Shown here in pieces: positions 25,051 through 26,865 of a stretch of DNA of 39,003 nt (positions are counted from its first letter, which is position 1; each line of letters begins with the position of its first letter). The position numbers and the translations under genes are program-made. The notes beneath the pieces were generated by a model, which ran no database searches, was not told the origin of the DNA, and was given only the letters and a program-made list of their open reading frames with translations. Where the stretch lies: assembly GCF_016817355.1 (NCBI RefSeq), contig NZ_JADOTT010000012.1, positions 8,724-47,726 on the forward strand. The letters run 5' to 3'. Source of the DNA: Maricaulis parjimensis (lineage in GTDB: Bacteria; Pseudomonadota; Alphaproteobacteria; Caulobacterales; Maricaulaceae).

Positions 25051-25734
25051 TTGACTCCTAGCCTGTCCGAAAAAAACGAGTATTCGCTTAACGCCGCTGC
25101 GCCGTTTTCCGGGCCTGTCATCGCTGGCGTTGACGAAGCTGGACGGGGACCGCTTGCTGGGCCGGTGGTGACTGCGGCCGTCATTCTCGACCCGCGCAAT
25201 CCGATTGCAGGCCTGGGGGATTCCAAGGCCTTGTCCGCACGAAAGCGGGAAGCCCTGGCGCTGGAGATCCGTCAGAAAGCCTGGGTGGCGTTCGGCATTG
25301 CCGAACCTGCAGAGATCGACCGGCTCAACATCCTGCACGCCACCATGACAGCGATGGCCCGATCGGTTTTCCGATTGCCGGTCATTCCGGACAAGGTCCT
25401 GATTGATGGCAATCGCGTCCCGGATGCTCTGCCCTGCCCGGCCGAGGCGATTGTGAAAGGTGATGCCAAGGAAGCCGTGATCGGTGCAGCCTCCATCATG
25501 GCGAAGACAATGCGCGACGCCATGATGCTGCAGGCAGCGCTCAGATTTCCCGGCTATGGCTTCGAGGGGCACAAGGGCTATCCCAGCGCTGCACATCGTG
25601 AAGCGCTCATGCAGCTCGGCCCCTGCCCCATCCACCGGATGAGCTACGCTCCGGTTCGCCTGGCGGCCGAATCGGCTTTATCCACAGATGCCGATGCGTG
25701 TGGAAAACTTGATCAAGGCTTAACGCCCCGTTAG
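25051..25734 (+). CDS. rnhB: Ribonuclease HII
   Basis: 227 residues; removes ribonucleotides from DNA and RNA primers. The catalytic [15 protein letters not shown] (D28, E29) is followed by [19 protein letters not shown] with the next acidic residue, [17 protein letters not shown] and [10 protein letters not shown]. The start is TTG 25051, with AAGGA seven bases upstream; the next in-frame Met is too far in. The last ~20 residues lie outside the conserved domain, and their DNA carries two DnaA boxes and a CtrA box belonging to the next gene. Confidence 0.95.
25678..25707. promoter_or_regulatory. Two inverted DnaA boxes
   Basis: TTATCCACA at 25678-25686 is a perfect DnaA box. TGTGGAAAA at 25699-25707 is the inverse of TTTTCCACA, a good second box, in the opposite orientation with 12 bp between. 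They lie 79-108 bp before ccrM, within the non-conserved 3' end of rnhB. Confidence 0.7.
25720..25734. promoter_or_regulatory. CtrA-type box upstream of ccrM
   Basis: TTAA-CGCCCCG-TTAG fits the CtrA consensus TTAA-N7-TTAA with one mismatch. It overlaps the rnhB stop codon and ends 51 bp before the ccrM ATG. In Caulobacter, ccrM is a direct CtrA target, which supports the reading. Confidence 0.65.
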
Positions 25735-25785
25735 CCATAAGCACGGACAAACTTCCCGTTCGGTTAGCGAGTGGAGTGGCGTGTC

Positions 25786-26865
25786 ATGGCGGAGACCCGG
25801 GTGGACCAGATCCTCGAGGGTGAATGCGTGGAAGTGATGAAATCACTCCCCGACGAAAGCGTTGATCTCGTTTTCGCCGACCCGCCCTACAATCTCCAGC
25901 TCGGTGGCGATCTGCACCGGCCAGACAATTCCAAAGTATCCGCCGTCGACAATGACTGGGATCAGATCGGCGGATTCGACGATTATGACCTGTTCACATG
26001 GAAGTGGATGGAAGAAGCGCGCCGCGTGCTCAAGCCGAACGGCGCGATCTGGGTGATCGGCAGTTACCACAATATCTTCCGCGTCGGCGGCATCCTCCAG
26101 GACGCAGGCTTCTGGGTGCTGAACGACATCATCTGGCGCAAATCCAATCCGATGCCGAACTTCAAGGGCACGCGCTTCACCAATGCGCACGAGACCCTGA
26201 TCTGGGCCGCCAAGACGAAGGACGCCAAGCCGACCTTCAACTATGCCGCCATGAAAGCGCTCAATGACGGCGTCCAGATGCGCTCCGACTGGACCCTGCC
26301 GATCTGTTCGGGCGGCGAGCGGCTGAAAGGCCAGGACGGCAAGAAGGCCCACCCGACGCAAAAGCCGGAAGCCCTTCTGCATCGTGTCATCCTGTCGACC
26401 ACCAATCCGGGCGACCTGGTTCTCGATCCCTTCTTCGGCACCGGTACGACAGGTGCCGCCGCCAAACGCCTTGGCCGCCATTACATCGGCATTGAGCGCG
26501 ACACGGACTATCTCGCCGTGGCCCGCGAGCGCCTCGCCGCCATCACGCCGGCCTCCGGCGAAGCCCTCAATGTCACCCAGTCCAAGCGCGCCCAGCCTCG
26601 GATTCCGTTTGGCGCGCTCGTCGAACGTGGCCTCGTGAAGCCGGGCGACACGCTCTACTGCCCGAAGGGCCGGTTCACGGCCCGGGTCCGTGCAGACGGC
26701 ACCCTGATTGCTGGCACCAATGCCGGATCCATCCACCAGGTCGGCGCCCAATTGCAGAGCGCACCGTCCTGTAATGGCTGGACCTACTGGCATGTTCGCA
26801 CCAAACAGGGCCTAGCTCCGATCGACGTGTTGCGCGCGGAAGTCCGCGCCACACTCGACAGCTAA
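25786..26865 (+). CDS. ccrM: Cell-cycle-regulated DNA adenine methyltransferase (GANTC)
   Basis: 359 residues, beta-class N6-adenine methylase that methylates GANTC. The catalytic motif DPPYNLQL is at 32-39 and the SAM motif [10 protein letters not shown] at 214-223, in the DPPY-before-FxGxG order of the beta class. The C-terminal ~90 residues (after about 270: [28 protein letters not shown]) match the DNA-recognition domain found in CcrM. It stands alone with no restriction partner, as expected for the cell-cycle enzyme. ATG 25786 was chosen, with GTGGAG upstream; GTG 25771 is an alternative. Regulation by CtrA and possibly DnaA is suggested by the boxes within rnhB. Confidence 0.96.

Follow-up and report, generated by a model that had tools for sequence, protein, structure and literature searches.

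In Caulobacter, CtrA activates the methyltransferase gene ccrM late in the cell cycle, from a hemimethylated chromosome (PMC2217572). The Caulobacter model has CcrM made under the control of CtrA and CcrM methylation activating the dnaA promoter, which closes the circuit (PMC2877005). DnaA also acts there as a transcriptional regulator: it activates gcrA, ftsZ, and mipZ, whose promoters have one or two boxes, and may do so more effectively once replication has initiated (PMC3193534). The DnaA motifs of mipZ are located at −52 and −83 (PMC4287350). DnaA and CtrA motifs occur together in 25 of the 77 promoters of cell-cycle genes that carry a DnaA motif (PMC4287350), and the two proteins compete at the Caulobacter origin (PMC8116508). 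The DnaA boxes upstream of gcrA, ftsZ, mipZ, and podJ are often accompanied by CtrA or GANTC sites, and ccrM is not named in the passages of the same two papers that deal with DnaA targets (PMC4287350, PMC3193534).

Control of ccrM by DnaA has already been predicted. An in silico survey by Brilli et al. in 2010 predicted DnaA sites before ccrM for some of the Alphaproteobacteria, in a set of species that included Maricaulis maris, and may already have had the M. maris site (PMC2877005). In the passage that treats this link, it is said to be one that “mainly concerns” species without CtrA sites at ccrM (PMC2877005), whereas Maricaulis keeps both sites together. What appears to differ here, judged from the DNA, is this co-occurrence of a DnaA box and a CtrA-type site in a fixed register. 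In the open-access literature, we found no description of a register-fixed DnaA-CtrA element at ccrM, of its inverted pair of boxes, or of a class-wide excess of DnaA boxes at this gene.

Results

We analyzed a stretch of 39,003 nucleotides from Maricaulis parjimensis (here called the window), in which rnhB, encoding RNase HII, is followed by ccrM (Table 1). The ccrM product matched the Pfam N6_N4_Mtase and RAMA models above their cut-offs, and it matched the NCBIfam CcrM model with an E value of 2e-188 and 625 bits, which is below the cut-off of 830 of that equivalog model. On these matches we regard the gene as a genuine ccrM. Its product is 89% identical to the CcrM of a Maricaulis MAG.

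The consensus DnaA box is TTWTCCACA. The form of this consensus used for Caulobacter is quoted in PMC2877005. In the initial annotation of the window, a perfect DnaA box, a second, inverted box 12 bp away, and a near-perfect CtrA box of the form TTAA-N7-TTAG had been placed upstream of ccrM, and all three were recovered exactly, in letters and in position (Table 1). The centers of the two DnaA boxes are 21 bp apart, which corresponds to approximately two helical turns. Because rnhB ends at the last position of the CtrA-type site, its stop codon, TAG, forms the final three letters of that site. A GTGGAG-type stretch is kept in the genus alignment at the position of the probable ccrM ribosome-binding site. 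A search for structured RNA gave no Rfam match at the gathering threshold in positions 25000 to 27000 of the window, and a simple scan of positions 25500 to 25900 found no sigma-70 promoter, so that any ccrM start site placed here is a guess.

Table 1. Features of the rnhB-ccrM region, in positions of the window
Feature	Position	Strand	Basis
rnhB (RNase HII)	25051-25734	+	ORF; Pfam RNase_HII E 1e-44, NCBIfam PRK00015.1-4
GAATC, the sole GANTC (CcrM) site in the 150 bp that precede ccrM	25669-25673	.	sequence
Distal DnaA box TTATCCACA	25678-25686	+	TTWTCCACA, 0 mismatches
Proximal DnaA box TTTTCCACA	25699-25707	-	DnaA consensus match
CtrA-type site TTAACGCCCCGTTAG (TTAA-N7-TTAG)	25720-25734	+	matches TTAA-N7-TTAA at 7 of 8 letters
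GGAG, probable ribosome-binding site of ccrM	25774-25777	+	sequence; inference
ccrM, GANTC adenine methyltransferase	25786-26865	+	start ATG 25786; NCBIfam, Pfam

We then compared the region upstream of ccrM across the genus, using 19 genomes, drafts among them, that comprised the window genome (G000) and 18 others. The gene was found in 18 of these, with no match in G099, which is 65% complete; one additional locus, L001, was kept out of the genus count, its upstream stretch being identical to that of L117. In the alignment of the upstream regions, the proximal box is an exact TTWTCCACA in 17 of the 18 loci and carries one mismatch in L118; relatives mostly have TTATCCACA at this position, while the window has TTTTCCACA. 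A CtrA-type site with up to one mismatch is present in all 18 loci (compared with 0 to 14 of 18 when other gaps between the half-sites are used), and its distance from the proximal box is a constant 12 nt throughout. The distal box is exact in 7 of the 18 loci, has one mismatch in three (L083, L087, and L111), and is unrecognizable in the other eight. No locus has more than two strong boxes before ccrM, 10 of the 18 have a single one, and one has none.

The initial annotation was right that both boxes exist, but the box that it had called good, the proximal one, is the conserved one, and not the outer box that it had called perfect. On the alignment, we take the proximal box to be the conserved DnaA element and the outer box its variable part. 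Absence of conservation in relatives had been named as the outcome that would speak against the sites; we found instead that they are conserved in the 18 genus ccrM loci, and that at the aligned rnhB-ccrM junction the DnaA-type and CtrA-type sites stay in a fixed register even where the surrounding codons differ. A tree of the 18 genus ccrM genes and five from other genera requires at least three changes for the strong pair of boxes, two of which are forced by well-supported branches, so the loci with a strong pair do not form one clade in this tree.

The ccrM promoter of Caulobacter crescentus resembles that of Maricaulis in belonging to an orthologous gene and in having a CtrA-type site and GANTC sites upstream. 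It differs in its DnaA boxes, since the 260 bp upstream of ccrM hold no strong box in nine Caulobacter loci. The Maricaulis element also differs from the DnaA-dependent promoters of Caulobacter in that the box stands at a fixed distance from the CtrA-type site and is part of an inverted pair in 7 of the 18 loci. At least three GANTC sites lie within 150 bp of ccrM in 11 of the 18 genus loci, interleaved with the boxes, and in those 11 loci the last of them is 4 bp before the CtrA-type site; among the 18 loci scanned, L082 and L118 have no GANTC within this distance.

The proximal box overlaps the end of rnhB in most of the genus. In 13 of the 18 loci, the rnhB stop codon TAA lies within the box, which then reads TGTGGATAA, and the CtrA-type site is intergenic. 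The box of the window reads TGTGGAAAA, with an A where most relatives have a T, and, lacking the stop codon, rnhB is consequently nine codons longer and ends at the TAG of the CtrA-type site. The initial annotation had set the sites in a non-conserved tail of rnhB that is free to serve as a regulatory region. Such an overlap does exist in the window, but a reading frame that reaches the CtrA-type site is unusual, given that most of the genus ends rnhB inside the proximal box. The rnhB frame likewise continues through the box in L083 and L111, ending just past it; in L090 it ends earlier, leaving the box entirely intergenic yet exact; and in L118 the box falls in another frame and is kept to within one mismatch. 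The box is kept in L081, L083, and L111 although the stop has been lost. On the basis of these loci, we reject coding constraint on rnhB as the cause of the box, although the conservation of TGTGGATAA could partly stem from its service as the rnhB stop.

A single strong box means little, because TTWTCCACA occurs as often in the 3.35-Mb window genome as the reversed control word (24 versus 24). The inverted pair TTWTCCACA-N6..26-TGTGGAWAA, by comparison, occurs at one place in this genome, at ccrM, with no match for the control. It was found in 7 of the 19 genus genomes, at a single place per genome, which was ccrM every time; the gap was 12 throughout although 6 to 26 was allowed, and the control gave 0 matches in all 19. 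Within 250 bp upstream of ccrM, the 18 genus loci hold 24 strong boxes, compared with one in the other 67.6 kb of these loci, and none of 400 permuted words reached 17 of 18 loci; these box counts, like those for the family and the class below, ignore shared ancestry. On the inverted-pair search, the position counts, and the permuted words, we reject a chance origin of the element.

Outside the genus, the family sample consisted of 60 of the 81 genomes of other genera with a match, namely the better-scoring ones less several in which the gene lies at a contig end. A CtrA-type site with at most one mismatch was present in 57 of these 60 loci, compared with 11 to 41 for other gaps. A strong DnaA box occurred upstream of ccrM in 2 of the 60, a number equaled by 10 of 400 permuted words.

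Across the class, we searched 153 genomes and found ccrM in 114. From the best-scoring 90 of the 113 other matching genomes, we removed G108, which has little upstream sequence, leaving 89, and then L288 (64 bases), leaving 88 loci. A strong box was found before ccrM in 12 of the 88, in both orientations; none of 400 permuted words reached that number, and the highest count among them was 2. Positions in L240 to L299 were measured from where the protein match begins, and the true start may be some 10 to 20 bp nearer. Among 77 named loci, six have a strong box, a count reached by 1 of 400 permuted words. Two further named loci, L053 and L077, were left out of these 77 for short upstream sequence; L053 has a strong box and is included in the set of 79. 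In those 79 named non-Maricaulis loci, seven boxes fall in the 250-bp bin before ccrM versus six in the other 512 kb. The number expected in that stretch is 0.2 when the frequency of non-coding boxes elsewhere (3 in 54 kb) is applied to the part of it called non-coding, and approximately 1.1 when all 260 bp per named locus are counted as non-coding. Five of the seven boxes belong to Rhodobacterales (L042, L048, L060, L064, and L070), one to an alphaproteobacterial MAG (L053), and one to Hirschia (L010).

In the same class sample, a CtrA-type site accompanies ccrM in 2 of the 12 box-bearing loci and in 13 of the 76 that lack a DnaA box; in the 77 named loci, the corresponding numbers are 1 of 6 and 25 of 71. 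The gap of 7 between CtrA half-sites was found in 15 of the 88 loci, against 7 to 23 for other gaps, and is thus not raised. With 2 of 12 set against 13 of 76 and this gap not raised, the class sample is uninformative about the mutual exclusion of DnaA and CtrA sites described by Brilli et al. in 2010.

Separately, we observed a ladder of methylation sites, GANTC-N18-GANTC-N6-GANTC, some 85 to 155 bp upstream of ccrM in 21 of the 77 named loci, all of them Rhodobacterales (L030, L047, and L049 to L052 among them). Of 900 pairs of gaps, none of the others occurred in as many as four loci. From its sequence, the ladder looks like a conserved element before ccrM that is read through methylation.

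Strong boxes are conserved at further genes of the genus. Upstream of ctrA, at 345 to 352 bp and within the ctrA-fliI gap, a strong box is present in all 19 genomes (L139 to L157; G000:C13:62417). The divergent gene, which by eye we take to be fliI, could be served by this box, as could ctrA itself. For dnaB, an assignment that we made by eye from the N-terminus, a 29-residue query matched 14 of the 19 genomes, and removal of G099, whose match is at a contig end, left 13 regions (L158 to L170). One or two strong boxes lie upstream in 12 of these (G000:C14:99418 and 99514 in the window genome), and five of the regions have two oppositely oriented boxes 95 to 96 bp apart. Three intergenic boxes of the window genome were picked as negative controls, and these were kept in 1 of 19 (lrp), 8 of 18 (ffh, with the partial L322 dropped), and 17 of 19 genus genomes (comM), so that the comM box is conserved, unlike a negative control. 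Conserved strong boxes therefore extend beyond cell-cycle genes, to comM and ffh.

The comM box, which reads TTTTCCACA, lies 87 to 101 bp upstream of what we take, by eye, to be comM (L323 to L341; G000:C1:611471). It is approximately 55 kb from parB in the window genome and is an unexpected candidate DnaA site.

Discussion

We consider it likely, on the evidence of the sites and their conservation, that the ccrM promoter of Maricaulis is combinatorial and that DnaA, beside CtrA, adjusts the expression of ccrM, in whichever direction. CtrA~P would occupy the TTAA-N7-TTAG site, which probably overlaps the −35 region, and would turn on ccrM late in the cycle, as it does in Caulobacter. Immediately upstream of CtrA, DnaA would bind the proximal box and, in those members of the genus that have it, the second, inverted box at a distance of two helical turns. 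Should the −35 region lie under the second half of the CtrA-type site, the two DnaA boxes would be centered near −65 and −86. From there, bound DnaA would adjust the CtrA-driven output of ccrM according to replication initiation. As to the sign of this effect, our analysis makes activation of the promoter by DnaA after initiation somewhat more likely than its repression around initiation. We favor activation narrowly, because the motif positions are similar to those at mipZ and because DnaA activates gcrA, ftsZ, and mipZ in Caulobacter.

The opposite sign would mean that DnaA, bound upstream of CtrA, hinders CtrA or the polymerase around initiation, which would keep CcrM from being produced during the period in which new DNA should remain hemimethylated. 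We regard this version, which draws on the same site evidence, as less likely than not, though it is the most serious of the alternatives. In 5 of the 12 box-bearing class loci (L232, L237, L253, L259, and L268), the box is within approximately 62 bp of the ccrM start, where a bound protein could obstruct expression, but the starts in class loci are estimates, and the boxes of Maricaulis do not cover the CtrA-type site but lie upstream of it. Transcription of ccrM is confined to late predivisional cells in Caulobacter (PMC2217572), as repression around initiation would have it; against this, the DnaA of that organism acts as an activator at gcrA, ftsZ, and mipZ (PMC3193534), and its CtrA is degraded at initiation (PMC8116508). 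A block imposed by DnaA at that time would therefore be partly redundant.

An improbable alternative is that the boxes at ccrM titrate DnaA or exchange its nucleotide, in the manner of datA or DARS, and have no effect on ccrM. The pair of inverted strong boxes, constant in spacing and unique in each of the seven genomes in which it was found, would suit such a site. So would its location: in the one-contig genome G026, with parB taken as the origin marker, ccrM lies approximately 0.85 Mb from parB on a 3.37-Mb chromosome, about midway along the replichore (a half of 1.68 Mb). A mid-replichore position of ccrM agrees with a survey of Caulobacterales (PMC8116508). However, a site of this kind fits poorly with two strong boxes at most, 10 of the 18 loci having one and another none, with the fixed register of the boxes to the CtrA-type site, and with their recurrence before ccrM in distant members of the class. 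An origin-type cluster of several DnaA boxes, as near an origin, is likewise absent at ccrM, which has two strong boxes only.

We give still less credence to the idea that the words bind nothing and were kept for rnhB coding or by chance. TTWTCCACA is indeed not over-represented in the genome, where it is matched by its reversed control, and the proximal box does supply the rnhB stop in 13 of the 18 loci, but the box persists where it lies beyond the end of rnhB (L090), where rnhB reads it in a different frame (L118, one mismatch), and where it no longer provides the stop (L081, L083, and L111), and the 24 strong boxes before ccrM contrast with one in the other 67.6 kb. Least probable of all is recognition of the TGTGGATAAC element by some protein other than DnaA: conservation does extend slightly past the box (TGTGGATAACTTGATTC) in many genus loci, which a GANTC site partly explains, but the core is the DnaA consensus, appears only in its two strong forms in 17 of the 18 loci, is found in either orientation across the class, and is present at dnaB and ctrA as well.

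Joint control of ccrM by DnaA and CtrA can be extended to a wider claim, namely, that direct control of ccrM by DnaA exists both in Maricaulis and, separately, in further lineages of the Alphaproteobacteria, that in Maricaulis it extends to ctrA and dnaB, that it bypasses GcrA, and that at ccrM it works through one element shared with CtrA in a fixed helical register. We put this claim forward tentatively, as a possibility that falls somewhat short of an even chance.

If it is true, one protein wires replication initiation into the timing of methylation. Direct input of DnaA to ccrM would add a return arm from the initiator to the methylase, and it could go some way to explaining how methylation stays coordinated with replication in lineages whose circuits are wired differently. 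The region before ccrM would also offer a short element for studying how DnaA and CtrA combine at a promoter.
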